A stretch of DNA of 64,000 nt, from contig NZ_SMFK01000005.1 in NCBI RefSeq assembly GCF_004349355.1, forward strand, positions 62,001-126,000, read 5' to 3'. The notes under the pieces were generated by a model. It was not told the DNA's origin. It searched no databases and was given only the letters and a program-made list of their open reading frames with translations. This document shows positions 50,921-64,000 of the stretch, piece after piece (within the stretch, counting starts at the first letter, position 1; the number at the start of each line of letters is the position of its first letter). The DNA is from Flavobacterium cellulosilyticum (lineage in GTDB: Bacteria > Bacteroidota > Bacteroidia > Flavobacteriales > Flavobacteriaceae). Made by a program: the position numbers and the translations under genes.

Positions 50921-53290
50921 TTAAAATCCACCACTACTTTGGGTCTCATTATTTTCTCTTGCTTTTCGTTGAATGGCTTTGTTTTTTCCAGAACCAAAAC
51001 GGTAATTAAACCCAAGAAAAGCAGTTTGACTTTCCCATTTAAATTCTCCATTAATGGGTTTTGGTTCACTTCTTTCAAAAGCAAAATGCATAGAATTAAA
51101 TACATCACTTACACGTGCTGTAATTGTTCCATTACCTCCTAAAACAGTTATGCTAGAGCCAGCATCTATCTTCCACATTGGTTTTGCCAATGCTTGAATA
51201 CTTAAATCAGGTCCGCGATACATACCAGATAATTGAAAACGTAACGCTTTAGAAACCTTAAATGTATTTGCTATTCGGGCATTGAATGCGGTATTGTTTA
51301 CTTCAATATAATCCTTATCTGAATATCCTTTTACGGTTTTGTTGTAGGCGTCAAAACTGATGTTGGTACTAAGCCATTTTGTGAAATCTAAATTACCTGA
51401 AATTTCAACTCCAAATGCTTTATTGTCATTTAAATTGTTATATGATAATATTATTTTGTCAGGACTTGTAGGGTTTTCTATAGCAGTTCTTGTGATTTCA
51501 TTATTGATTTGTCTGTAAAAAATTCCCGAAGTTATAGAACCAATTTTTGTTTTTCGCGTATAGTTTACTTCAAATGAATTGGTATATTGAGGTTGCAGAT
51601 TCGGATTACCTAGAAAATCAATTTGAGGGGTGCTTCTTTCTAATATTGGGCTAATTTGTGAAATACTAGGTCTATCTACTCTTTTAGAAACACTGAAATT
51701 ATAGGAGTTTTTGTCATTTGGAATGTAACTAGCAAAACCTGAAGGATAAATTGTAAACCGATTATTTTCGTATTTGGTATCATTCATATTTAGATTTTTA
51801 AATAAAGCATTAGCTAAGTAATCTTCCATTCTTGCTCCAGCTTGTAAATTCCATTTTCCAATTTGTTTTGAATAGGTTGCATATCCAGAATATATCTTAC
51901 GATCGTAATTGAAATTTGAATTTAATACATTATTCTCCAAAAAATTATTATTTGTTTTTTCTAATCTACTCTCTAATCCTAACTCTAATTTTGAGGTTTC
52001 GGATAAAGGATTAGTATAATCTAAATTGATTAAAGTGCTGTTATTTGAATTAGGAGTGTCATTTATTCTATTATTAAAACCACTATATACTATGTTTTCA
52101 GTATTGTCACCCAAACTATAATTGGCTTCAAATTCTAAAGTATGACCTTCTTTTTTGAATTTTTTCTTGTAATTCAAATTATAGGTGTGATTGTAATTAT
52201 CTTTTTGGTTATTTGAAAATTGCTGTATGTTTTTATTTGGATCTGGATAGACAATACTTGTTAATGAATTTCCTTTGTTGAAAGAACTATTTTGAATAGT
52301 GTAAATGGAGAAGGTATTGGTGTCATTTAAGTAAAAATCAAATCCCATTTTTAAGAGATTTGAAGTATTTCTATTGTCAAAATTAAAGGACTGATTATTT
52401 TCTTGACCTGGAGTTAAGAACTGTACAAAACCATTTCGAGTTTGTTTTCCACTATTTAATCCATAGTTGCCAAAAAGATTGAATTTTCCATTTCGATAAT
52501 TCATATCCGTAGAACCATTAAATTTAGGAGTTTTACCTTGTGTGATACCACCATTTAAATTCCCATTAAAACCAACTTTACTATTTTTATTTAAAACGAT
52601 ATTAATCATACCACTCATTCCTTCGGGATTGTATTTTGCCGAAGGATTGGTAATCAGTTCAATTTGTTTTATAGAACTAGAAGGGATTTGTTGTAATAGT
52701 TGGGCAGCGCTGATTGTACTGGGTTTTCCATCAATTAATATTCGAACATTCGAGTTGCCTCGAAGACTTATTTCATTGGTTTGTTGATCAATACTTACAG
52801 AGGGGATGTTGTTCAAAATTTCAGCAGCTGTAGCACCAGCACTCAATAAATCTTTACCTACGTTTATGACTTTTCGGTCTGTCTTTTGTTCAATTATAGA
52901 TCGTTCCTGAACAATTTCAACCTCAGAAAGTTGGGTAGCATCTTCTTCAATTGCAATTGTGTTTAAATCCACTGATTTATTTTCTTCTGACAAGGCAACC
53001 TTTTTCAGAATGGTTTTATATCCAATGTATTGTATCTCAACTGAATAATTTTTTAAAGCTAAATTTTTGATTGCAAAAGTTCCTTTGTCAGTTGTGATTA
53101 CTCCAGTGATAATTTTATTGTCTAGTTTCACAATAACATTTACGTACGAAAGTGGTGAATTACTTTTTTTGTCAATAATCTTGCCGATAATAATTCCAGA
53201 TCCAGTTGAAACAGATTGATTAACTGGGTTTTGGGCTTGTATGGAAAGTACAAATCCAATTAAGCAAAGTAAAATTAGTTTTAAGTTCAT
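50921..53290 (-). CDS. TonB-dependent receptor-like outer-membrane protein
   Basis: The 789-residue protein has a signal peptide (MNLKLILLCLIGFVLSIQAQ), a carboxypeptidase-regulatory-like domain (IIGKIIDKKSNSPLSYVNVI), a plug domain (GATAAEILNNIPSVSIDQQT, RILIDGKPSTISAA) and a barrel of the OMP_b-brl_3 type with Asn-rich loops. This architecture takes up or secretes unknown substrates with TonB energy. No substrate-binding lipoprotein (SusD-type) or FecIR pair is next to it. Confidence 0.87.
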   Translation of the reverse strand: MNLKLILLCLIGFVLSIQAQNPVNQSVSTGSGIIIGKIIDKKSNSPLSYVNVIVKLDNKIITGVITTDKGTFAIKNLALKNYSVEIQYIGYKTILKKVALSEENKSVDLNTIAIEEDATQLSEVEIVQERSIIEQKTDRKVINVGKDLLSAGATAAEILNNIPSVSIDQQTNEISLRGNSNVRILIDGKPSTISAAQLLQQIPSSSIKQIELITNPSAKYNPEGMSGMINIVLNKNSKVGFNGNLNGGITQGKTPKFNGSTDMNYRNGKFNLFGNYGLNSGKQTRNGFVQFLTPGQENNQSFNFDNRNTSNLLKMGFDFYLNDTNTFSIYTIQNSSFNKGNSLTSIVYPDPNKNIQQFSNNQKDNYNHTYNLNYKKKFKKEGHTLEFEANYSLGDNTENIVYSGFNNRINDTPNSNNSTLINLDYTNPLSETSKLELGLESRLEKTNNNFLENNVLNSNFNYDRKIYSGYATYSKQIGKWNLQAGARMEDYLANALFKNLNMNDTKYENNRFTIYPSGFASYIPNDKNSYNFSVSKRVDRPSISQISPILERSTPQIDFLGNPNLQPQYTNSFEVNYTRKTKIGSITSGIFYRQINNEITRTAIENPTSPDKIILSYNNLNDNKAFGVEISGNLDFTKWLSTNISFDAYNKTVKGYSDKDYIEVNNTAFNARIANTFKVSKALRFQLSGMYRGPDLSIQALAKPMWKIDAGSSITVLGGNGTITARVSDVFNSMHFAFERSEPKPINGEFKWESQTAFLGFNYRFGSGKNKAIQRKARENNETQSSGGF

Positions 53291-53499
53291 AAGGTTTTTC
53301 AGTGAATATTAGAATGACGCTAGTTTGTTTTTGAGTAGAATTAGTGCAAAATAAAGCAATTTGTATTTTAAATCATAAATGTAATTATGCAAGTAGACTC
53401 CGATTGATAAAAAATGTTACAGTTCTATTTTAAAAATACAGCGAAAAATATTTTTTCTAATCAAATAGCTAATAATTTTAGGTCAGAAATTATCTTGTT

Positions 53500-53519
53500 T
53501 CTCAATTTCCTAATTGAGA
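53500..53519. promoter_or_regulatory. palindrome upstream of argS
   Basis: TCTCAATT (53500-53507) and AATTGAGA (53512-53519) form an 8-base palindrome just before the argS promoter. It could be an operator or part of a terminator for the opposite strand. Confidence 0.4.
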
Positions 53520-53528
53520 CATTATGCC

Positions 53529-53536
53529 TATATTTG
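53529..53536 (+). promoter_or_regulatory. TAnnTTTG promoter element of argS
   Basis: TATATTTG lies 21 bases before the argS ATG at 53558. Confidence 0.55.
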
Positions 53537-53557
53537 CACCCTTAAAATCAGAACAAA

Positions 53558-55336
53558 ATGACCCTATCCCAGATTCTTACTCCTTATATCGAAAAAGCGG
53601 TGCAAACTTTATTTGACGTCAACCTTGATAAAGTTGAATTTCAATCCACTCGCAAGGATTTTGAAGGTGATATTACAATGGTAATTTTTCCATTATTGAA
53701 AATTGTTAAAAGTAATCCAGTAGAATTAGGAAATAAAATAGGGGCTTATTTAGTCGAAAATGTATCGGAAGTAAGTAAGTTTAACGTAGTTTCTGGATTT
53801 TTGAATATTGTTATTTCAGATAAATACTATTTAGATTTTTTCAATGAAATCAGAACTATCGATAATTTCGGATTTGTAAAACCAAATTCGGATGAAACTG
53901 CGGTAATGGTCGAATATTCCTCGCCAAATACAAACAAACCTTTGCATTTAGGGCACGTTCGAAATAATTTATTGGGATATTCCGTTGCCGAAATTATAAA
54001 AGCTTCTGGAAAAAAAGTATATAAAACTCAAATTATCAACGACCGAGGAATTCATATTTGCAAGTCGATGTTGGCTTGGGAAAAATTTGGAAACGGAGAA
54101 ACTCCAGAATCTACTGGATTAAAAGGAGATAAATTAGTTGGGAATTATTATGTAGCTTTTGATAAAGCTTACAAAGAAGAAATTGCCCAATTAATGTTGG
54201 AAGGAAAAACCGAAGATGAAGCCAAAAAACAAGCTCCAATTATTCTCGAAGCTCAAGAAATGCTATTAAAATGGGAAGCTGGAGATGCGAAAGTAATGGC
54301 ACTTTGGAAAACCATGAATCAATGGGTTTATGATGGATTTGCTACAACTTATTCCAATCTTGGAGTTTCTTTTGACAGTTATTATTACGAAAGTAATACC
54401 TATTTGCTTGGAAAAGATGTCGTTCAAGTTGGATTAGAAAAAGGAGTTTTCGAAAAAGATCCAGATGGTTCTGTTTGGATCGATTTGACTGAGGAAGGAT
54501 TAGATCGAAAAATCGTTTTACGATCAGACGGAACTGCCGTTTATATGACACAAGATATTGGAACAGCCATTCAGCGAGTGAAAGATTTTCCAGATGTGGG
54601 AGGAATGGTTTACACGGTGGGAAATGAACAGGATTATCATTTCAAAGTGTTGTTTTTGATATTGAAAAAACTAGGTTTCGATTGGTCAAAAAACTTGTTT
54701 CATTTGTCTTATGGAATGGTGGATTTGCCTTCAGGGAAAATGAAATCACGTGAGGGAACAGTCGTAGATGCGGATGATTTAATGACTGAAATGACTGAAA
54801 CTGCTCAAAAAATAGCCGAAGATTTAGGGAAATTAGATGGTTTTTCTGCTGATGAAAAATTAAAATTGTACAAAACCATTGGTCTTGGTGCATTGAAATA
54901 TTATATATTAAAAGTGGATCCTAAAAAACGAATTCTTTTCGACCCAAAAGAATCAGTTGATTTTGCTGGAAATACGGGATCCTTTATTCAGTATACCTAT
55001 GCTAGAATCCAATCAATAATACGCAAAGCTAATTTTGATTTTAGTGTTACATCGAGTATAGTTCAGTTACATGAAAAAGAGAAAGAATTAGTAAAACAAA
55101 TTGAATTATTTCCTGAAGTAATTCAAAATGCAGCGCAAAATCACAGTCCAGCATTAATTGCAAATTATACTTATGATTTAGTGCGCGAATACAATTCGTT
55201 TTATCAAGCGGTTTCTATTTTAGGTGAAGATGATTTAGACAAAAAAGTATTTAGAGTGCAGCTTTCAAAAAAAGTAGCCGATACTATTGCATTAGCATTT
55301 CAATTATTAGGAATTGATGTTCCGGAAAGAATGTAA
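53558..55336 (+). CDS. argS: arginyl-tRNA synthetase
   Basis: The 592-residue class I synthetase charges tRNA-Arg. NTNKPLHLGHVRNNLLGYS is the HIGH-type motif, and SGKMKSREGTVVDADDLM is the KMSKS-type motif near residue 395. An N-terminal Add-1-like tRNA-binding region and a C-terminal DALR-type anticodon-binding domain are both present. The length is typical. The gene has its own promoter element and a clean terminator. Confidence 0.96.
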   Translation: MTLSQILTPYIEKAVQTLFDVNLDKVEFQSTRKDFEGDITMVIFPLLKIVKSNPVELGNKIGAYLVENVSEVSKFNVVSGFLNIVISDKYYLDFFNEIRTIDNFGFVKPNSDETAVMVEYSSPNTNKPLHLGHVRNNLLGYSVAEIIKASGKKVYKTQIINDRGIHICKSMLAWEKFGNGETPESTGLKGDKLVGNYYVAFDKAYKEEIAQLMLEGKTEDEAKKQAPIILEAQEMLLKWEAGDAKVMALWKTMNQWVYDGFATTYSNLGVSFDSYYYESNTYLLGKDVVQVGLEKGVFEKDPDGSVWIDLTEEGLDRKIVLRSDGTAVYMTQDIGTAIQRVKDFPDVGGMVYTVGNEQDYHFKVLFLILKKLGFDWSKNLFHLSYGMVDLPSGKMKSREGTVVDADDLMTEMTETAQKIAEDLGKLDGFSADEKLKLYKTIGLGALKYYILKVDPKKRILFDPKESVDFAGNTGSFIQYTYARIQSIIRKANFDFSVTSSIVQLHEKEKELVKQIELFPEVIQNAAQNHSPALIANYTYDLVREYNSFYQAVSILGEDDLDKKVFRVQLSKKVADTIALAFQLLGIDVPERM

Positions 55337-55353
55337 TAGCATAAAAACTAAAT

Positions 55354-55385
55354 AAAAAAAGACTTCATTTGAGGTCTTTTTTTAT
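55354..55385. terminator. bidirectional terminator after argS
   Basis: AAAAAAAGAC pairs with GTCTTTTTTT around a short loop. It serves argS on the plus strand and the DOMON gene on the minus strand. Confidence 0.78.
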
Positions 55386-55418
55386 GAAAAGAAATAGTTA
55401 AAAAAAAAGGATTAGTAA

Positions 55419-56198
55419 TTATTCTATAATTATTTTTTTCCAAGTTTTTTCTGTTCCATTTTGCAATTCGATTAAATAAATTCCTTTTTGCAAACTTTCC
55501 AAGGTTACTTCAACTTTATTAGATTTGTCACTCATTTCAATAGTTTTTATAAGTGAACCTGTTTGAGAATATACATTTATTTTGTCTATACCTGATTTTT
55601 TTTCAACGCTAAAACTACCGTTTGATGGATTAGGATAGATTGAAGATGCTTTCAATGAAAAATCTTCAATACCCAAAGTTGTTGTAAGCGGAACACTCAC
55701 AACATAACCACGATTTCCTCCTCCGTGGTTGTTTAGTGTGTAACCTGCATTACCTCTACGAGCCCAAGCAAAATCTATTGTTGAATTTGTATAATTAAAT
55801 GTGTAATCATTGGTATCGCCAGTCGATAAATCTCGTTGTGCAATTATAGTTCTAATTCCTGATGTTATTGTATTTGAGGTAATTGCCCAATTTTGGATTG
55901 CATCAGTATTTGGTGTTACTCCAACATCTACCATATTTCCATCAATTAATGTTGTGCCGTCGGCATATACAAAATCTTTTCCAAGAGCCATTCCATCGCC
56001 AACTACAAAAGTTCCAAATTGTAAAGCAAACCATCTGTCTGATGGACCAGTAAGTACCATTGTTGCTTTTAGTTTTGTGTTGTCTAATGTTAAATTTACT
56101 GTCATATTGGTTGACATCGTAATATTTCCAGTAGATTTTTGTTAAGAAAAACCTACAAGGCTAGTCATTGACAATGTTAGAAGAGTAATTTTTTTCAT
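55419..56198 (-). pseudogene. DOMON-like secreted protein interrupted by a stop
   Basis: From the ATG at 56196-56198 the frame reads MKKITLLTLSMTSLVGFS, then TAA, then QKSTGNITMSTNMTVNLTLD and on without a break for 233 further codons. The stop falls at codon 19, right at the signal-peptide junction, where homologues would have another residue. The body (WFALQFGTF, DFVYADGTTLIDGN) matches DOMON-like domains, which bind haem or sugars, and the C-terminus (IYPNPSNGSFSVEKKSG) is a type A sorting domain. Only an ATG at 56117 could restart translation, without a signal. I treat the gene as disabled or as carrying a consensus error. Confidence 0.68.
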
Positions 56199-56258
56199 AG
56201 ATTTACTTTAATCGGTTAATTATTGGTTCGTTTTCAGAAAAAACTGCATATTAAAAAG

Positions 56259-56735
56259 CTATTTTCCTTTTTTGTCTTTGAGGGTTTTATCGGCATTATA
56301 TTCTAAAAGTATTTTGACTAATGGAATGTTTTTGAATTGCACAGCTAGTAACAATGCTATTGTTCCGTTGGCATCAGTGGTATTGGGATTGGCTTTGTTT
56401 TCTAATAATAATTTTACTAATTCAGTTTGATTTTTATAAGTTGCAGCCATAAGTGCTGTTCCCATATCAGAACTATAATTAATATCTTTCCCATTTTTTA
56501 TTAAGAATTTAGCAACCTCAATATAGCTTCTATAACAAGCTAATATAAGAGGACTTGATTTGTTCTCGTTAACTGAATTGATTGAATTGGGATTTGTTTT
56601 GTATATTGATTGAATTTCAGACAATGTTCCATTTCGGGCTATTTCAAAAATAGTTTTGTTTTGTGCTTTGGCGATAATGAAACAAAATAAAGTAAGTAGT
56701 ACTAGTTTTTTTTTATTTTTGAATAGTATTTTAAT
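56259..56735 (-). CDS. exported ankyrin-repeat protein, likely ATT start
   Basis: The protein has a signal-like leader (KILFKNKKKLVLLTLFCFII) followed by three ankyrin repeats (PLILACYRSYIEVAKFLIKN, TALMAATYKNQTELVKLLLE, IALLLAVQFKNIPLVKILLE). No ATG lies in the frame before the repeats. The stop of the YceI gene overlaps the first base of ATT at 56735, in the arrangement TAATT instead of the usual TAATG, which suggests ATT is the start (158 residues) or a mutated ATG. An internal ATG at 56624 would lose the leader. Ankyrins mediate protein contacts. Confidence 0.65.
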   Translation of the reverse strand: MKILFKNKKKLVLLTLFCFIIAKAQNKTIFEIARNGTLSEIQSIYKTNPNSINSVNENKSSPLILACYRSYIEVAKFLIKNGKDINYSSDMGTALMAATYKNQTELVKLLLENKANPNTTDANGTIALLLAVQFKNIPLVKILLEYNADKTLKDKKGK

Positions 56736-57286
56736 TAATTTGCTTCAAGTGTAAAACTCATCGATATTTTTACGTTTTCGGCAATCTTATCTTTTACAAG
56801 ATTGGGAATTTCAATTTTGTAATCTTGCGGTTTTACGAAAATTACACTCGTAGCAATAATTTTGTCCCCATTTTGAGAAAGATTAAGTTTAGTTTTTATC
56901 TTTTTCGTAACACCATGTATTGTTATATCTCCTTCTAAATCATAAGTAGATTTTGTTACGGATAATTTTTTGACATCAAAACCTGCTATTTTACCTTTGA
57001 AACTAGCCTTTGGAAACTTAGAAGACTCCATATAATTTTCATTAAAATGTTCTTCCATCAAAGGTGATTTGAATTTGAAAGCTTTTATAAGAACTAAAGC
57101 GGCAAAATCAGCAGTAGATTCATCAAGAATGCAAGAGGCCGTATTGTTTGTTCCTGCTATTTCTTCAAAAGCAGCCATAGAAGCCTCAAATTTTACTTCT
57201 CCCTTGCGAGTCATCAATTTTTGCGAGAAAATTATATTTCCAGCTAAGAGGCATATTGTTGCTATTATTAACTTATTCGTTTTCAT
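56735..57286 (-). CDS. YceI family periplasmic protein
   Basis: The 183-residue protein has a signal peptide (MKTNKLIIATICLLAGNIIF). Its body, with FEASMAAFEEIAG, LVLIKAFKFKSPLMEEHF and SFKGKIAGFDV, fits the YceI lipocalin-like barrel, which binds polyisoprenoid lipids such as quinones. It is the fifth gene after the Rieske, OB-fold, DUF5777 and CxxCH genes, all on the minus strand with 20-40 base gaps. A quinone-binding role beside redox proteins is plausible but unproven. Confidence 0.88.
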   Translation of the reverse strand: MKTNKLIIATICLLAGNIIFSQKLMTRKGEVKFEASMAAFEEIAGTNNTASCILDESTADFAALVLIKAFKFKSPLMEEHFNENYMESSKFPKASFKGKIAGFDVKKLSVTKSTYDLEGDITIHGVTKKIKTKLNLSQNGDKIIATSVIFVKPQDYKIEIPNLVKDKIAENVKISMSFTLEAN

Positions 57287-57307
57287 GTTTTTTATATAGA
57301 TTTTATT

Positions 57308-57649
57308 TTAATTTTGGCATCCTTGGGTTTGCCATAGTAAAAACATAGCAATTGTTGTTTTTGGCATAGAACCTGATTGTGGCATTACTCGTCCACAAGC
57401 TTGAGTTTGATCAATTCGGCATATTAGTTCACCATTTATAGTGGCATCCTTTACTTCGGCATACGTTTCTAAGTTTGGAGATTGTGCATTTCCAGAATGG
57501 CAACTTGTACAGCTGGATTTAATAATTGGACCTATATTGGCACTATAAGTAGGATTTGTAACAACAGCGATGTCACTATAGGTGTTCGATTCACAAGAAA
57601 CAATGAATATTGAACTGATAAGGATTAATAATATTTGTATATTTTTCAT
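57308..57649 (-). CDS. lipoprotein with c-type haem motif
   Basis: The 113-residue protein has a lipoprotein signal (MKNIQILLILISSIFIVSC). The mature part contains IIKSSCTSCHSGNAQSPNLE, with CxxCH as the haem c attachment site, and later MPQSGSMPKTTIAMFLLW, where a Met could be the distal ligand. Extra Cys residues (LICRI, ACGRVM, QGCQN) are unusual for cytochrome c. It may carry electrons between a membrane donor and a periplasmic or surface partner. Confidence 0.75.
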   Translation of the reverse strand: MKNIQILLILISSIFIVSCESNTYSDIAVVTNPTYSANIGPIIKSSCTSCHSGNAQSPNLETYAEVKDATINGELICRIDQTQACGRVMPQSGSMPKTTIAMFLLWQTQGCQN

Positions 57650-57669
57650 AATATAATCTTATTTATTTT

Positions 57670-58539
57670 TTAAAAAACTCTGTACATATTGAAACCAAAA
57701 TAGATACTTCCACCATTCCAATTTCCGGTAGTGTTTGAAAATACGGCTACATCATTCATAGGTTGACTATTTGAAAATACCAATTGAAAAACGTGACCAC
57801 CAGTTTCGATGTCCAAACCTACAGATAGTGGATTTTGATAAGGAGATACAAATCCTTCAACAAATTCCAAACGAGCTGCATATTCTAAATTAAGACTCAA
57901 TCTTTTTGATAATTTGTAGCGAGCACCTGCACCAACAAAAAATTGATCTTTATGATCTATACCATATTCATATAAATTTTTATGTAAATAAATAGGGGCA
58001 ACCTCAAATGAAAAAGATTCCGAAAATTTTCTTGAAACTATTAATTGAGAAGTATAGGCCAATCGATTGGTGAATTTTATTCCTGGATTTGCCGCTTTTT
58101 TTAATTCACTATTAATGTCCATAGTATTATATCCAACAATGGTAACCGGAAAACCATCTTCTATCTGATTAGCAAATTTGTATTTTGCTGTTAATTCATA
58201 TAGTTTATTATAGGTGTGTCGTGAAGCGCCTAGCGAAAGCCAATTTGTAGCTCCATAAATGCCACCAATTTTTGTTAAAGCATTGTCTAATCCAAAAAAA
58301 TTATCTAGCCCATTAGTCAAATCTCCAAAGCGATGCGAAACAACCATATACCATTCGCCTTGTGCTGGTAATTTAGTCGATTGCATATTACATATTTGCA
58401 ATCCTTTGAAAGCAGCTGGTACAATTTGTTTTTCAGTAGGTGATTGATTGTTTAATTGATTCAGCAAGTCATCTTGGGCAAAAAGGGCTCCAGTCGTAAA
58501 AAAGATAAACATAAAACCTATAAAGTATTTCTTTCTCAT
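57670..58539 (-). CDS. DUF5777 family beta-barrel protein
   Basis: The 289-residue protein has a signal peptide (MRKKYFIGFMFIFFTTGALFAQ). FKGLQICNMQSTKLPAQGEW, MVVSHRFGDLTNGLDNFFGL and YGATNWLSLGASRHTYN match DUF5777, whose members are predicted outer-membrane barrels of unknown function. It ends with aromatic FNMYRVF, a barrel-insertion signal. It lies between the haem lipoprotein gene and the OB-fold gene. It could be a pore or scaffold for the cluster's periplasmic proteins. Confidence 0.85.
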   Translation of the reverse strand: MRKKYFIGFMFIFFTTGALFAQDDLLNQLNNQSPTEKQIVPAAFKGLQICNMQSTKLPAQGEWYMVVSHRFGDLTNGLDNFFGLDNALTKIGGIYGATNWLSLGASRHTYNKLYELTAKYKFANQIEDGFPVTIVGYNTMDINSELKKAANPGIKFTNRLAYTSQLIVSRKFSESFSFEVAPIYLHKNLYEYGIDHKDQFFVGAGARYKLSKRLSLNLEYAARLEFVEGFVSPYQNPLSVGLDIETGGHVFQLVFSNSQPMNDVAVFSNTTGNWNGGSIYFGFNMYRVF

Positions 58540-58577
58540 TTAATTTATTTTAGTTTTTAATAATTTTTTGTTAGAAA

Positions 58578-58970
58578 TTAAAATGCTTTAAAGCATTGAT
58601 CTAGTTTTAACTCTCCTATTAAGTCATCATAACCTACTACTCGACCTTTTAATGTTATGACTTGGTTTTTTAGGATGGAAGGGTCTAATTCTTTTAAATT
58701 ACAAATAACGTAATCATCAATAATCACTTCATTGCCAGCTACTTTTGTGATGGTTCCTTTTATGGCGATTGCTTTTTCAAGATATTTTTTATTTGATATT
58801 TCAACATTAGCAGCAAACTCATTTGAAATACTTTTTGCGGTAACGGTAAAAGCGGTATCTTCATTGGATAAATTTCTTGCTCCTCCATACATTACATAAT
58901 AGTAACTTGAGATTCCCAAAAGACCAATAACTAATAATGCTATAAGAATTATTTTATTTATTTTTTTCAT
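58578..58970 (-). CDS. OB-fold (tRNA_anti-like) membrane-anchored protein
   Basis: The 130-residue protein has an N-terminal membrane helix (KIILIALLVIGLLGISSYYY) and a C-terminal OB-fold domain (LEKAIAIKGTITKVAGNEVI, QVITLKGRVVGYDDLIGELK) of the tRNA_anti-like type. In Bacteroidota this fold occurs in membrane-anchored proteins without a proven nucleic-acid role. The single-span anchor suggests a periplasmic orientation. The gene is between the Rieske and DUF5777 genes. Confidence 0.8.
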   Translation of the reverse strand: MKKINKIILIALLVIGLLGISSYYYVMYGGARNLSNEDTAFTVTAKSISNEFAANVEISNKKYLEKAIAIKGTITKVAGNEVIIDDYVICNLKELDPSILKNQVITLKGRVVGYDDLIGELKLDQCFKAF

Positions 58971-59001
58971 AATTTATTTTGGGGTTTTAAATATTAAACT
59001 A

Positions 59002-59424
59002 TTAGGAATAGACTCGTAACGAATTTCCGGTAAGAGTAACATTGTATTGTTTTAAATTGGCTGAGCCCGGTCCGTTTAAGTGTATTCCAGTGTTACTGTA
59101 ATTGGCACCGTGATTTGGACAATGAAAAGAATTACTTGGTCCAACATAATTTACATTTGTTCCTTCGTGAGTGCATGCTGCTGAAACGGCAATAAAAGTG
59201 GAGGCATCAACTCGGGCAACAATAATTTGATTCGAAACTAAATATCCTTTATCTACGGATAAAGATCCAGTAGAAGTATCTAAAGTAAAATCTACATTTG
59301 TTGGTGCAACACTGGAGTTTCCTCCGTCTGTACTACAGCTCAATGCTAAACCAGAGATACAAGCTGGCACCAAAACTGAAGCGGCACCAAAGCCAGCTCG
59401 AGCAAAAAATTCTTTTCTAGTCAT
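59002..59424 (-). CDS. Rieske [2Fe-2S] protein with Tat-like leader
   Basis: The 140-residue protein starts MTRKEFFARAGFGAASVLVP, with a leader containing Arg-Lys and a hydrophobic stretch (a non-canonical Tat-like signal), then a lipobox-like ALSC. The iron-sulphur ligands are ACTHEGTNVNY and FHCPNHGANYS (CxH...CxxH). Such small Rieske proteins pass electrons in the periplasm or on the membrane surface. It is the first gene of the redox block, 140 bases after the TonB receptor gene. Confidence 0.9.
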   Translation of the reverse strand: MTRKEFFARAGFGAASVLVPACISGLALSCSTDGGNSSVAPTNVDFTLDTSTGSLSVDKGYLVSNQIIVARVDASTFIAVSAACTHEGTNVNYVGPSNSFHCPNHGANYSNTGIHLNGPGSANLKQYNVTLTGNSLRVYS

Positions 59425-59563
59425 ATTATATGTTTATTTGATTCCAATAATACAACAATTTTGATGTAGCTTACCCTACCGTGTTTTACTTTTAATTTTT
59501 TAAATGTAATTTAAATATTTGATAATTAGTTTTTTACATGGAAATTTAATTTTTAAAATAGGA
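59425..59563. other. spacer between TonB receptor and Rieske gene
   Basis: About 140 AT-rich bases with no frame and no clear terminator hairpin, so transcription may run through from the TonB receptor gene. Confidence 0.4.
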
Positions 59564-62101
59564 TTAAAACTGCACTCTAAAACTCAGGTTTGGAGTTCTT
59601 TGAAGAGAGTATGTTTCTACTTCTTGTATAGAATTTGTCAAAGGACTGATTCTATAAAATTCATTAATTTCATTTTTCTTATTCAAGATGTTTACTATAG
59701 ATACACCTATTTTAAATTGAATGCCTTTTATAGTTTCCCATTTATAAGTAGAGGAAAGGTTAATTTGGAAAAAAGGGTTTAAATTAGTGTTGTTTGGGCT
59801 GTTATATACAATTTCAGGATTAGATGCATTTACTTCTGTACTACGTGGAGAAGTTATAGGTCGACCGGAAGACCATTTTGCCCCCAAAGCAATTTTAAAA
59901 TTATTTTTTTCATAAATCCCAGCCCAAGAAAGGTTATGGTCCATTTCAAAGTTGTTTGGGAAAATGGGGTATTCGTAATTTTGAAATTGGTAATTATTGT
60001 CATTATAGGTATAACTCAACCAAGTTAAAAAGTGATTTATTTTTTTTTGAATCAGAATTTCGGTTCCAAAAACCACATAGTTCCCCGTTATTTTTAAAAA
60101 TTCTAATTGGTTTTGAAAACCTTGGCTTGAGCTCGTTATTCCATCCACTTTCTTGTAAAAGTTCTCTATATTTAGCAACCAATTGTTCTTTTTATAGAAC
60201 AGACTTACTGATAATTGTTTGCTTTTTTGAATAGGAACAGTACTATTGTTTGATAAGATCCAACGTCTTTTTTCAATTCCAAAATAATCTTTTTGCAAAT
60301 CAATTATTTGCTGACAATTTTGACTTTTAAATTCTCCTAAAACTTCTAGATTTAGATTTTTGTTAAGACCATAATTAAACTGTAATCGAGGTTCTACTAT
60401 AAATTTATTGAATTTTTCAATATAATTGTATCGCATTCCTATGTTCAAATATATTTTCGAAAGGGTATCATTGTATTTTCCTTCAAGAATTAGCGCATGG
60501 GTTCTTAATACATCTTTGATTTTCCGATAGAAATTAGGACTATTCACTTGATCTAAATTAATTGCACCTATTTCATTGTACTGATATCCATTATTAAATG
60601 TGAATTTTGAACTCAGAATATGATTGTTTTCGATGTTTATACCATTGTCTTGAATAGTGTTTTGTTGTGTTACTATTTGATTTCCATCTGTTATGGTTTT
60701 ATCGGCTAAAAGCTCGTAAGAGGAATAGTAAGTGTTTATTTTTGTAGTATTAAAATTATTCCAATTTCGTTTCCAAAATAAATTGCCTCCAAAATTTGTT
60801 TGACGCAAAACATCTTTTTCAGAATCGATTGAATTATTTATAGTGGCGCTCTGAATAACATTGAGATTGTCTTTTATGGTTATTAAATCGACTATAATTT
60901 GATCTTTAAGCCCTATTTTTTGAAAATATTTTATTGTAGCATCATAGAAACTAAATTTCTTATTGCTTTGATAGTCAATGTTTTGATTTTGTGAAAAATC
61001 AGTAATAGTGGCGTTTTGAAATACTTTATTAAAATATTCTTTGTAGGTTGGAGTCTCTAAAAAATCAGTAATGGATTTTCGTCCAGAAACTTCAATGTAA
61101 CTGTTTTTAGAAAGATTGTGCTTTGCATAAATATCAGCATTAATCATATTGATTCCGGCACTAAAATTATCTTTCTCAATCGCATCATTATTTGAAGAAA
61201 TAGCAACTACACTAGACACACTTTCACCATAAAAAGCCGAACTTCCATTTTTATATATTGAAATTGTATTGGCTAAATTTGGATTGAAGACCGATATTAA
61301 ACCAAAAAAATGTCCCGTTTGGTACATTCTTATTCCATTCCAAAGAAATAAATTTTGATCATGAGTGCCGCCACGGACATTGATACTGGCTACACTTTCA
61401 TCGATACTGTTAATGCCTGGGATTTGTTGCATCGTTTGTAATGCATCGGGTTCAATTAATCCTGGTAAGATTCCGAATTTTTTTGGTTTAATTTCAAATG
61501 ATCCATTCGCGTTTTTTGAAATTCCTGATGCCAAAATAGCATTGGTTTTGATTTCTGGAAGTTCAGTAACTTCAGGTTCTAATACTATTTTAAGATAATT
61601 TTTAGAGTCTATATTGACTATCGAAATCTTTTGTGTTATAAATCCGACATGACTAATCCAAAAATAATTTTTTATATTATTTTTAAATTCAAAATAGCCA
61701 TTGGAGTTGGTGATAATTCGGCTGGCATCAACAAAATTTATATTGACGTTTTCAAGGGGTTGGTTGTCTGTTTTGGAATAAATATACCCACAAATTATTT
61801 TTGACTCAAGATGTTTTTTACTATAAATATTGATAAATTTATTGTTAATGTTTTCAAAAGAAAGAGTGGTCTTTTTTTCGAGATATCTGAGTTTTTGATC
61901 TAACGAAAGTGATTTATTTGGAGGAGTTAATTGAATGCCATCCACATTATCGTCGGTGTAATTAAAACTAACTATATGCTGTTTTTCAATTTCGATTAAT
62001 ATATTTTTCAATGCTACAACTTTGCTTTTTTCTTGAGCTGAAACGTTCAGCACAAGAAAAAAGAAATAAAATAAGACACCAATACGTTTGTGATGGAGCA
62101 T
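59564..62101 (-). CDS. TonB-dependent receptor with STN domain (FecA-like)
   Basis: The 845-residue protein has a signal peptide (MLHHKRIGVLFYFFFLVLNV), an STN domain (residues about 30-95, IVSFNYTDDNVDGIQL), a carboxypeptidase-regulatory domain (IICGYIYSKTDNQPLENVNI), a plug (LPGLIEPDALQTMQQIPGIN, INVRGGTHDQNLFLW) and a long barrel ending in a Phe. The STN domain normally contacts FecR to signal substrate binding. The ATG directly follows the fecR-like stop (TAA-ATG). Substrate is unknown. Confidence 0.92.
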   Translation of the reverse strand: MLHHKRIGVLFYFFFLVLNVSAQEKSKVVALKNILIEIEKQHIVSFNYTDDNVDGIQLTPPNKSLSLDQKLRYLEKKTTLSFENINNKFINIYSKKHLESKIICGYIYSKTDNQPLENVNINFVDASRIITNSNGYFEFKNNIKNYFWISHVGFITQKISIVNIDSKNYLKIVLEPEVTELPEIKTNAILASGISKNANGSFEIKPKKFGILPGLIEPDALQTMQQIPGINSIDESVASINVRGGTHDQNLFLWNGIRMYQTGHFFGLISVFNPNLANTISIYKNGSSAFYGESVSSVVAISSNNDAIEKDNFSAGINMINADIYAKHNLSKNSYIEVSGRKSITDFLETPTYKEYFNKVFQNATITDFSQNQNIDYQSNKKFSFYDATIKYFQKIGLKDQIIVDLITIKDNLNVIQSATINNSIDSEKDVLRQTNFGGNLFWKRNWNNFNTTKINTYYSSYELLADKTITDGNQIVTQQNTIQDNGINIENNHILSSKFTFNNGYQYNEIGAINLDQVNSPNFYRKIKDVLRTHALILEGKYNDTLSKIYLNIGMRYNYIEKFNKFIVEPRLQFNYGLNKNLNLEVLGEFKSQNCQQIIDLQKDYFGIEKRRWILSNNSTVPIQKSKQLSVSLFYKKNNWLLNIENFYKKVDGITSSSQGFQNQLEFLKITGNYVVFGTEILIQKKINHFLTWLSYTYNDNNYQFQNYEYPIFPNNFEMDHNLSWAGIYEKNNFKIALGAKWSSGRPITSPRSTEVNASNPEIVYNSPNNTNLNPFFQINLSSTYKWETIKGIQFKIGVSIVNILNKKNEINEFYRISPLTNSIQEVETYSLQRTPNLSFRVQF

Positions 62102-63001
62102 TTATTTTTGTTCAAAAATTATTTTGTTTTTTGCTGCTTTTTTAACTTCTAAATTATAGGTCGTTCCTATAATTTGTAATGCAACATCTAAATTATTAGT
62201 TGGTAATTTACCAGTGAATAGGGCGTTGGTGTCTTTAGAGTGTAATTCAATTATAATGTTATATTGCCTTTGAACTTCGTCTAGTAAATTGCTAATATTT
62301 TCTTTATTGAACGCAATTTGATGGTCGATCCACTCTGGTTTTAATGCGTTTATACTAGTGTTTGTTTGTATTCCATTTTCAAATATTACGTTTTGACCCT
62401 GTGTCAAAATAAGTTGAGTGTCTTCATAATTCACCTTTACTCGACCTTCATAACAAGTGATGTCAAGTCTGTTTTTTCTAGCTTTAACATTAAATTGAGT
62501 TCCTAAAACAGCTACCGTTCCCAAATTTGTTTTAACTTCAAAACGACTGCCTTTGGCAACCTTAAAATAGGCTTCTCCCTCTAATTCAATTTCTCGGTTA
62601 GCATTCCATTTCCATTTTTTGTATTCAATTTCAGAGCCTGAATTCAGTACCACTTCTGAATTATCAGGTAAGGAGAAAGTAGTTGTTTTACCAAATTCGG
62701 CAGTTTGTGTTTGCGGTACAAAATTTTTCATCACAAAGGTGATACTAAGTCCCAAAATAAAAATAGCGGCTACTCTAACAATCCATTTTCTGTACATTGG
62801 AATTATTTTAGGAGTTGCTTTTTTGTGTTGAAGTATTTTTCCTAAAATTTTGTTTTCATCAATTTCATCAACTTCTAAATGAGAACTATGCTTTTTTATT
62901 TTATTGTATTTTTCGAAATCAGGACTCGCTTGAAATTCGGCAAGTTCCATATCCGATAATTCGTTGTTTAGCCATTTGGCCAATATGTAATTTTTTTTCA
63001 T
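62102..63001 (-). CDS. FecR-family anti-sigma factor
   Basis: The 299-residue protein has a cytoplasmic N-terminus, one membrane helix (KWIVRVAAIFILGLSITFVM, residues about 72-91) and a periplasmic FecR domain: TTFSLPDNSEVVLNSGSEIE and GEAYFKVAKGSRFEVKTNLG. A DUF4974-like C-terminus (NISNLLDEVQRQYNIIIELH) contacts the receptor. It transmits the receptor's signal to the sigma factor encoded 51 bases before. Confidence 0.93.
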   Translation of the reverse strand: MKKNYILAKWLNNELSDMELAEFQASPDFEKYNKIKKHSSHLEVDEIDENKILGKILQHKKATPKIIPMYRKWIVRVAAIFILGLSITFVMKNFVPQTQTAEFGKTTTFSLPDNSEVVLNSGSEIEYKKWKWNANREIELEGEAYFKVAKGSRFEVKTNLGTVAVLGTQFNVKARKNRLDITCYEGRVKVNYEDTQLILTQGQNVIFENGIQTNTSINALKPEWIDHQIAFNKENISNLLDEVQRQYNIIIELHSKDTNALFTGKLPTNNLDVALQIIGTTYNLEVKKAAKNKIIFEQK

Positions 63002-63052
63002 TGTATTGGTATTGTTATATTAAAACAATTAGATGTCTATTCACCCTACTTT

Positions 63053-63568
63053 TTATAAATCTATTTGTTTTCGTAAAGTTAATAAAGCTAGATGAATGCG
63101 TTTCTCGACTGTCTTAACACTAATTTCTAACTCGATAGCAATTTCACTATATTTCTTTCCATCAATTCGATGCATCAAAAAAGTGACTCTTTGTTTTTCG
63201 TTCAATTCTTCAATAGCTTTCAAAAGGTTGGATTGAAATTGTTTTTCTTCCAAAATGTATTCTGGATTTTCATTTGTCTTATCTGATCCACCAAAGTTTT
63301 TTGCATATCGTAAAACCACTTTTTGATGCGCAATTTGATTTAAAGAACTGTTATTTGCAATAGTGTAGACGTAGGATTTTGCTTTTTCTATTGGAACCGA
63401 TGCACAATTTTGCCAAAGTTTTATAAAGGCATCCTGAGCCAAATCTTCTGCTTGATCTCTATCTCCAAATTTGTAATAAAGATAATTCCGTAATGATTTA
63501 AAATGATTTTTAAAAAATGACGAAAAAATGATTTCATCACAAGTAGTAGACCTATTTTTATTTGACAT
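63053..63568 (-). CDS. ECF sigma factor, FecI-like
   Basis: The 171-residue protein has region 2 (DRDQAEDLAQDAFIKLWQNC, SYVYTIANNSSLNQIAHQ) and region 4 (LNEKQRVTFLMHRIDGKKYS, VKTVEKRIHLALLTLRK). It is the first gene of a sigma/FecR/TonB receptor unit and probably drives transcription of the receptor and perhaps the downstream redox block. The C-terminal part matches the family length. Confidence 0.93.
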   Translation of the reverse strand: MSNKNRSTTCDEIIFSSFFKNHFKSLRNYLYYKFGDRDQAEDLAQDAFIKLWQNCASVPIEKAKSYVYTIANNSSLNQIAHQKVVLRYAKNFGGSDKTNENPEYILEEKQFQSNLLKAIEELNEKQRVTFLMHRIDGKKYSEIAIELEISVKTVEKRIHLALLTLRKQIDL

Positions 63569-63814
63569 TTATATCTTTTGGTTTTAACTTTTTAAAATAC
63601 ATATAAAATAAATTTTTAGTAGGGTAAAAGTAAACTAAATTGTTTTATAGTAGTCTAGGAAAACGTATTGTTCGCTTAGAAAATCTAAACGCAGCATTAA
63701 TATAATTATTTTCGAATAAAATTAATTTTTTTAACTTTAGTTCCGATTTAGTTAAATTATATAGAATAAAATTAATAAGTTTAAAATTCATTACTTTTGA
63801 TTATTAAAATTACC
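63569..63814. other. divergent spacer
   Basis: About 250 AT-rich bases between divergent genes; it contains a TACTTTTG element (63792-63799) upstream of the last gene and nothing else recognised. Confidence 0.5.
63792..63799 (+). promoter_or_regulatory. TAnnTTTG element for the last gene
   Basis: TACTTTTG lies 16 bases before the ATG at 63815; no clear TTG element is visible at -33. Confidence 0.4.
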
Positions 63815-64000
63815 ATGTTAAGTAAAAAATATTTCCAGTTTTTAACTTTAATAAGTTTGTTTCTGCTTTTCTCTTGTCAAAGTGAAACAGCGGAACAAGT
63901 TTATAACAATCAGGCAACAATTACAAAATTTTCACCACTTACTACTGAGCTTAAAAGGGTTGCAATGGTGAATACTGCTGATGATAATATAATTGACCAA
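63815..64000 (+). CDS. lipoprotein, 5' part only
   Basis: The 62 residues present start MLSKKYFQFLTLISLFLLFSC, a lipoprotein signal with Cys at residue 21, followed by QSETAEQVYNNQATITKFSP. The frame runs off the window with no stop. The gene is divergent from the sigma/FecR/TonB block, so it could be its regulated neighbour. No family is recognised from this short piece. Confidence 0.7.
   Translation, partial: MLSKKYFQFLTLISLFLLFSCQSETAEQVYNNQATITKFSPLTTELKRVAMVNTADDNIIDQ

Follow-up and report, generated by a model that had tools for sequence, protein, structure and literature searches.

Near the end of a 64,000-nucleotide stretch of Flavobacterium cellulosilyticum (the window; contig NZ_SMFK01000005.1, positions 62,001 to 126,000), a FecI-type extracytoplasmic function (ECF) sigma factor gene, a FecR gene and a TonB-dependent receptor gene are followed on the same strand by a block of putative redox genes, which raises the question of whether receptor unit and block form one system. 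It is highly likely that, in this lineage, the redox block belongs to the regulon of the sigma factor: the spacer upstream of the Rieske gene contains a two-box motif of the sigma unit's own type, which links block and sigma factor, and the same motif recurs upstream of such cassettes in relatives.

A two-box motif at the locus and in relatives

All ten genes listed in the first-pass annotation are present in the order given, on the minus strand from 63568 to 55419. The gaps from the Rieske gene through YceI, given there as 20-40 bases, measure 20-38 bases, and the receptor-Rieske spacer, given as 140 bases, measures 139. The unit extends further than that annotation, since it crosses the window edge with a divergent lipoprotein gene, LipoD, starting at 63815 (+). 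The features are as follows.

63815..64000 in the window, continuing past its edge to L004:2841 (+): LipoD, divergent lipoprotein of ~341 aa; C-terminal lipocalin-like barrel, N-terminal part unmatched, no Pfam match above cut-off
63619..63643 (+): motif GTAGGGT-N14-TTGT before LipoD, by pattern search
63053..63568 (-): FecI-type ECF sigma factor; TIGR02985, exactly at cut-off
63025..63049 (-): motif GTAGGGT-N14-TTGT within the FecI-FecR gap, by pattern search
62102..63001 (-): FecR anti-sigma/sensor; FecR domain
59564..62101 (-): TonB-dependent receptor; plug and CarbopepD_reg_2, N terminus weakly FecR_C-like
59455..59479 (-): third motif GTAGGGT-N14-TTGT, in the spacer upstream of the Rieske gene, by pattern search
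59002..59424 (-): Rieske [2Fe-2S] lipoprotein; CTH (84-86) and CPNH (102-105)
58578..58970 (-): OB-fold protein (tRNA_anti-like); hydrophobic stretch at the N terminus
57670..58539 (-): DUF5777, predicted 12-strand outer-membrane barrel, by Pfam and structure model
57308..57649 (-): monohaem mini-cytochrome c lipoprotein, 113 aa; CxxCH (47-51), Met89, weak Pfam matches
56735..57286 (-): YceI-like periplasmic protein, by Pfam
56206..56711 (-): ankyrin-repeat gene, broken; start codon absent, frame change near the 3' end
55419..56198 (-): gene for DOMON and type IX sorting tail, broken; stop after the signal peptide

The motif was first spotted by eye in the gaps of this locus, where the same two boxes occur before FecR, before the Rieske gene and, on the opposite strand, before LipoD; its independent test is provided by relatives. 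The pattern GTAGGGTRA-N(9-15)-ATTGTT is found at these three sites only in the 4,657,187 bases of the genome, its reversed form has no match, and none appeared in 100 shuffles of the window. The looser pattern GTAGGGT-N14-TTGT also gives three sites genome-wide, all at this locus, but its reversed control equally gives three, and so the argument rests on the position of the sites and not on their number. GTAGGGTRA-N(9-15)-WTTGTNNTA is present in 44 of 150 genus genomes and GTAGGGT-N15-TGTTTTA in 45 of 121 genomes. Across 47 mapped units, which include a few genomes seen twice, GTAGGGT-N14-TTG[TC] lies in 29 FecI-FecR gaps and on 39 divergent sides. The ECF-type motif from the promoter map of Flavobacterium psychrophilum has a CGT box and differs from the motif found here; the portion of that source available to us makes no mention of FecI/FecR (PMC9723704).

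A scoring matrix trained on 55 distinct sigma-unit sites only was run on the sequence ahead of the leading gene in each of 106 distinct cassettes. These came from 80 public contigs and from 40 loci retrieved by position; cassettes that share an identical barrel were counted as one, and the window was excluded. The control consisted of 925 other genes of the same loci. Scores above 10 were obtained for 37 of the 106 cassettes and 8 of the 925 control genes (Fisher 5e-32, a value that, like the other Fisher value given below, is overstated because the rows are related by descent). The window's own spacer site scores 18.7, and among 36 pairs of GTAGGG and NTGTTT, 34 show a spacing of 15 bases out of the 21 spacings tried. 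Four of the control matches (L058, L086, L092 and L154) are CxxCH proteins with weak or no Pfam matches and two (L104 and L105) are small open reading frames (ORFs) between receptor and cassette; as most control matches are of these two kinds, the control rate is more likely to be too high than too low.

When divided by placement, the score exceeds 10 in 17/17 cassettes behind a receptor where the stretch also includes LipoD and FecI, in the one cassette behind a receptor in Kaistella (L136, LipoD not seen), in 7/12 otherwise placed near the unit, in 1/6 directly behind LipoD (L055), a placement that LipoD's promoter could serve, and in 11/70 whose stretch does not include LipoD plus FecI. Among the last 11, L052 is cut by a contig end and holds FecI, FecR and the receptor, and some others lie on short contigs. 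The cassettes of L058, L059 and L073 carry the motif, with the units of the same genomes mapped elsewhere (L081, L080 and L072). The comparison of gene order across relatives, which had been proposed as a check, shows the core both with and without the receptor.

The arrangement itself varies. Flavobacterium and Kaistella have the cassette behind the receptor; in Winogradskyella, Aequorivita, Flavivirga, Xanthomarina and two others it follows LipoD, and in further Flavobacteria it is found beyond LipoD or is divergent. A Flavobacterium johnsoniae CI04 locus (L103) contains the complete unit as well as a cassette. DUF5777 (1e-20) is present in 50/53 genus genomes with the receptor (1e-200) versus 53/97 without it (Fisher 1.2e-7, 150 genomes). 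LipoD plus FecI are absent from the fetched stretch in 71 of the 106 cassettes, some of these stretches ending at contig ends, and 12 of the 71 still carry the motif. The earlier proposal of one signal-regulated system is accordingly upheld in that a promoter-like motif of the sigma unit precedes the block and the block is a conserved envelope redox set, but not in its implied tie to the receptor, which is not universal. A strong promoter and terminator in the spacer had been named as the arrangement that would speak against it; a promoter-like element is present, but it is of the sigma unit's own type, and the spacer holds no terminator-like site, of which 53000-64000 contains 4 versus 5.1 expected by chance. 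A search for primary sigma-70-type promoters was uninformative (58 found versus 55.3 expected).

Two loci were checked for the gene ahead of the cassette: Chryseobacterium L115 and L111, from a Flavobacteriia metagenome-assembled genome, both have a Crp-family gene there in place of the unit, and similar-sized ORFs occupy its position in other Chryseobacterium loci. The cassette is thus kept under changing regulators. Several Flavobacterium-like cassettes away from the receptor (L061, L062, L071, L073 and L079) adjoin a ~730-aa radical SAM gene, and an ORF of ~530-550 aa lies nearby in L060, L061, L062 and L079, which in L060, where checked, is the bacillithiol gene bshC.

Motif sites also occur apart from the cassette. 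CxxCH lipoprotein pairs divergent from it are found in L052 (10607-11788), L086 (6747-8117), L088 (6442-8094) and L092 (6701-7723), some with a motif of their own, and are likely to be further cytochromes of the regulon. A distant site in G309 (L229) heads a Rieske-thioredoxin-ApbE gene run, as assigned by Pfam. Other distant sites precede secreted lipoproteins, namely a DUF4382-like protein (L231), a CAP-domain protein (L227), a Lipoprotein_15 protein (L230) and one without a Pfam match (L225), and several of the 16 distant-site stretches (e.g. L236, L237, L238 and L240), which are followed by housekeeping genes or by no clear gene, resemble chance.

Cassette core and putative exchangeable surface carriers

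The set of OB-fold protein, DUF5777, CxxCH protein and YceI is complete in 81 of the 106 cassettes, and only a recognised OB protein is missing in 23. DUF5777 is present in 110/296 genomes of a phylum sample and in 0/14 controls; the nearest named relatives of the window's copy are mostly from Flavobacterium. Outside the family, where 20 regions were taken and one was too short, YceI lies beside DUF5777 in 16/19 and a CxxCH protein in 17/19, with Rieske in place of the latter in the remaining two (L207 and L224), and an OB protein in 3/19. Together, the OB fold, DUF5777, the mini-cytochrome c lipoprotein and YceI make up a core cassette of long standing in the Bacteroidota, which is also found where the receptor is lacking.

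The DUF5777 model (mean pLDDT 76.7) has 12 strands and best matches FapF (Z 18.1, 4.3 Å over 211 residues) and KdgM (Z 17.9, 2.1 Å over 166), with the KdgM/NanC porin group also at Z 17.2 and FadL-type channels at Z of about 12-13. The CxxCH and a later Met of the mini-cytochrome are kept in at least 97% of 105 proteins. Both cluster-binding pairs of the Rieske protein are kept in 10/10, the disulfide cysteines of bc1 are absent, and no cytochrome b gene lies in the block beside it. The conserved residues of the Rieske, cytochrome, DOMON and cupredoxin proteins are read here as cofactor ligands.

Close by lies a slot for an exported carrier with a type IX sorting tail. In a tally covering seven genes around the barrel, with profiles built from members of these loci so that misses are possible, the carrier is a DOMON protein in 41 of the 106 cassettes, a DUF2271-like protein in 13 and a plastocyanin-like cupredoxin in 4, and two kinds never occur together (0/106). 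Each kind has its own company: an ankyrin gene accompanies DOMON in 41/41 cassettes and is found in 0/65 without it, and ApbE stands beside the DUF2271-like protein in 10/13 and in 0/93 other cassettes. The window's block has no ApbE. The plastocyanin-like proteins are all above the Pfam cut-off and keep H, C, H and M (both 4/4). Met43 is kept in 42/42 and His131 in 35/42 of the DOMON set. The DUF2271-like proteins have Pfam matches below cut-off or none, and 13/14 carry [ST]GA[ST], as does one DOMON protein (L123); this is the motif flavinylated in Meheust et al. 2021 (PMC8238504).

The carrier kind changes at least nine times over 59 rows of a quick barrel tree in which 26/104 inner branches are open, and the barrel nearest to the window's, from L085 (84%), goes with a DUF2271-like protein. 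A replacement of DOMON by Rieske, considered from L048 and L051, which have Rieske and no DOMON, was rejected, as L057, L059, L077 and L098 have both.

The block was earlier described as ending in a DOMON gene with a stop. The stop is there, directly 3' of the signal peptide, but the ankyrin gene is broken too: it has no accepted start codon at the relatives' start position and its last part is in another frame. In the window, the damage is confined to DOMON and ankyrin, as would fit the two acting together. The window's DOMON match in Pfam is weak (E 0.0025, below cut-off); among relatives, L054 is above cut-off (1.6e-10), and L045 and L065 have no DOMON match. Searched against Protein Data Bank (PDB) sequences, the L054 protein gave three weak matches, none a DOMON entry, the best spanning the C-terminal tail only. 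A second, diverged cassette on contig 31 of the same genome (L065, G000:C31, 5428-10085) has all genes full-length, ankyrin and DOMON among them, and lacks the motif; two YceI genes and a CxxCH gene are on one strand and OB-Ank-DOMON-DUF5777 on the other.

Proposed function and competing explanations

The block is probably an envelope redox chain that ends in exchangeable surface carriers. The computed gene set, its conservation, the motif, the exchange of modules and the conserved ligand residues are consistent with the following mechanism. LipoD, FecI, FecR and the receptor would form a cell-surface signalling unit, in which a ligand at the receptor, and perhaps also at LipoD, would cause FecR to release FecI, which would then bind GTAGGGT-N14-TTGT promoters and transcribe three units, namely the FecR-receptor pair, LipoD and the redox genes. 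The OB protein would be anchored in the inner membrane, YceI would reside in the periplasm, the mini-cytochrome c with His/Met ligands would be a lipoprotein, DUF5777 would be an outer-membrane barrel and the Rieske protein a further carrier. The outer electron carrier would be a cofactor protein taken to the surface by type IX secretion: either DOMON, with Met/His ligands as in haem b DOMONs, together with ankyrin; or a DUF2271-like protein with FMN attached via ApbE; or a blue-copper domain. A metal complex may be reduced by the chain and then taken up by the receptor. The most specific form of this proposal, in which a Bacteroidota chain has a type IX-delivered, exchangeable haem, FMN or blue-copper terminus with its own helper and is switched by the TonB receptor signal to export electrons when the ligand is present, is possible but on balance doubtful.

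Known systems resemble the locus in part. As in FecI-FecR-FecA signalling, a single unit combines the sigma factor with FecR and a TonB receptor, whose N-terminal signalling-domain matches are weak and below cut-off; here, however, the unit includes a divergent lipoprotein, and what the motif links to it is a redox cassette and not an ABC transporter. Porin-cytochrome conduits (MtrCAB and Pcc) and Cyc2 likewise combine an outer-membrane barrel, an adjacent c-type cytochrome and a surface redox protein; unlike the multihaem MtrCAB and Pcc, however, the cytochrome here has one CxxCH in 113 aa and the barrel has 12 predicted strands, and unlike the cytochrome-porin fusion Cyc2, the two are separate genes (57649-57308 and 58539-57670). 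Cellobiose dehydrogenase-type DOMON cytochromes share the conserved Met and His, whereas the proteins here carry a sorting tail for type IX secretion, are paired with an ankyrin protein and lack a dehydrogenase domain. Related cassettes pair [ST]GA[ST] DUF2271-like proteins with ApbE, as in flavinylated ApbE/DUF2271 systems, for which the abstract of Meheust et al. notes functional redundancies between flavinylation and cytochromes; they differ in their sorting tail, their DUF5777/YceI/mini-cytochrome core and the use of DOMON or cupredoxin as substitutes, and neither "YceI" nor "Bacteroid" occurs in the main text of that paper (PMC8238504).

Several observations weigh against the regulon and the redox chain. 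The loose motif pattern is at a chance number genome-wide, and 69/106 cassettes do not score above 10, including 51/53 of L111-L164 (mostly other genera) and 18/53 of L045-L110, where in L104 and L105 the site precedes a small upstream ORF. A paralogous LipoD-FecI-FecR-receptor unit in the same genome has a similar motif, so that cross-talk is possible. No recognised surface carrier lies within seven genes in 48/106 cassettes, and the His of the DOMON pair is replaced by Q or E in 7/42. Surface exposure is weakly supported, as acidic residues after the lipobox do not clearly separate LipoD from the CxxCH and Rieske proteins. On their own, one haem and a 12-strand barrel are insufficient for electron passage through the outer membrane, and the chain would require extra cofactors or else a diffusible carrier.

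The last point also favours an unlikely alternative, in which DUF5777 and YceI shuttle between the membranes a quinone-like or other amphiphile on which the cytochrome, the Rieske protein and the surface carriers act as oxidants or reductants, with no protein-to-protein electron passage through the outer membrane. A single haem cannot span a membrane, YceI proteins bind polyisoprenoids, the phylum-wide minimal core is carrier, YceI and barrel, with YceI adjoining DUF5777 in most readable regions, and the DUF5777 model also resembles FadL/TodX-type channels. The porin-like matches nonetheless score well above the FadL-type ones, and a surface hand-over of electrons accounts best for the swapping of one-electron carriers within the exported slot. 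Still less probable is that an iron-type receptor unit and a redox or stress-repair block have separate jobs and are chance neighbours sharing a general sigma specificity. In most named loci the fetched stretch does hold the cassette but not the unit, two have the Crp-family regulator ahead of it, and the paralogous sigma unit shows that similar motifs occur elsewhere; against this stand the motif before cassettes distant from the unit of their genome, the linkage kept in several different arrangements, and the co-occurrence of DUF5777 with the receptor.

Within the preferred reading of a surface-ended redox chain, reductive metal acquisition is a special case, in which the surface carriers would reduce ferric or cupric complexes for release or uptake of the receptor's cargo; it is a first guess at the substrate and a rather unlikely one as it stands. 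FecI/FecR/receptor units usually serve iron carriers. The window's receptor, however, has no relative among PDB sequences at E 0.01, and solved structures consequently gave no ligand. Meheust et al. 2021 describe DUF2271 as an ApbE substrate and place flavinylation genes near iron transporters (PMC8238504). In a Bizionia iron-homeostasis regulator mutant, a Rieske protein and a cytochrome c whose locus tags neighbour each other decrease along with a siderophore receptor. The authors read this Rieske-cytochrome pair as complex III and its cytochrome; it is a lead for the metal-uptake guess and not a test of it (PMC9478572).

If the surface-ended redox chain holds, DUF5777 gains a function and a widespread, testable system is defined, type IX secretion gains a use in electron transfer, a defined sigma promoter predicts regulon members from sequence, and the ankyrin protein would be a helper of the DOMON carrier, as ApbE is for the flavoprotein. 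Cell-surface electron transfer seems little described in Flavobacteria, judging from a limited literature listing, and a literature search, with most subscription journals outside its coverage, found no paper on DUF5777, none describing or naming this cassette and none measuring electron transfer by it.

Receptor unit, LipoD and neighbouring genes

The ECF sigma gene is followed by a gene with a FecR domain, the arrangement of FecI/FecR surface signalling. The first-pass annotation called the receptor STN-TonB; the TonB receptor assignment stands, whereas its N terminus matches FecR_C only (0.0054, below cut-off) and not STN, which was found in two of three relatives' receptors scanned, in both below cut-off (0.025 and 0.21). 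The receptor family is common (181/249 family genomes hold a relative at 1e-30), and no SusD is found among the ten genes or LipoD. The genome has seven FecR matches, one being the window's. The nearest other, 36% identical, belongs to the paralogous unit (L169, G000:C23), whose two-box element before FecR is similar but not identical, and the other five FecR stretches have no GTAGGG.

The LipoD model (pLDDT 87.7) has a lipocalin-like C-terminal domain that matches potempin E (Z 10.7, 2.8 Å over 90 residues); the N-terminal two thirds gave no match in the PDB, which is not probative. Acidic residues follow the lipobox in 29/33 LipoD, 33/60 CxxCH and 6/9 Rieske proteins, and the lipoprotein export signal was rejected as a sorter of surface proteins since the separation is not clean.

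Two relatives have a gene inserted between FecI and FecR (L053, 15491-17071; L075, 8108-9676), whose product combines SBBP propeller repeats with a type IX sorting tail. In L063 (4438-6968, G383), the receptor gene is split by one internal stop, and FecI, FecR and LipoD appear full-length. The unit is bracketed by argS (window 53558-55336), which the end of the block faces, and ffh (L004 3190-4548), and argS, ffh or both also flank the unit in many relatives.

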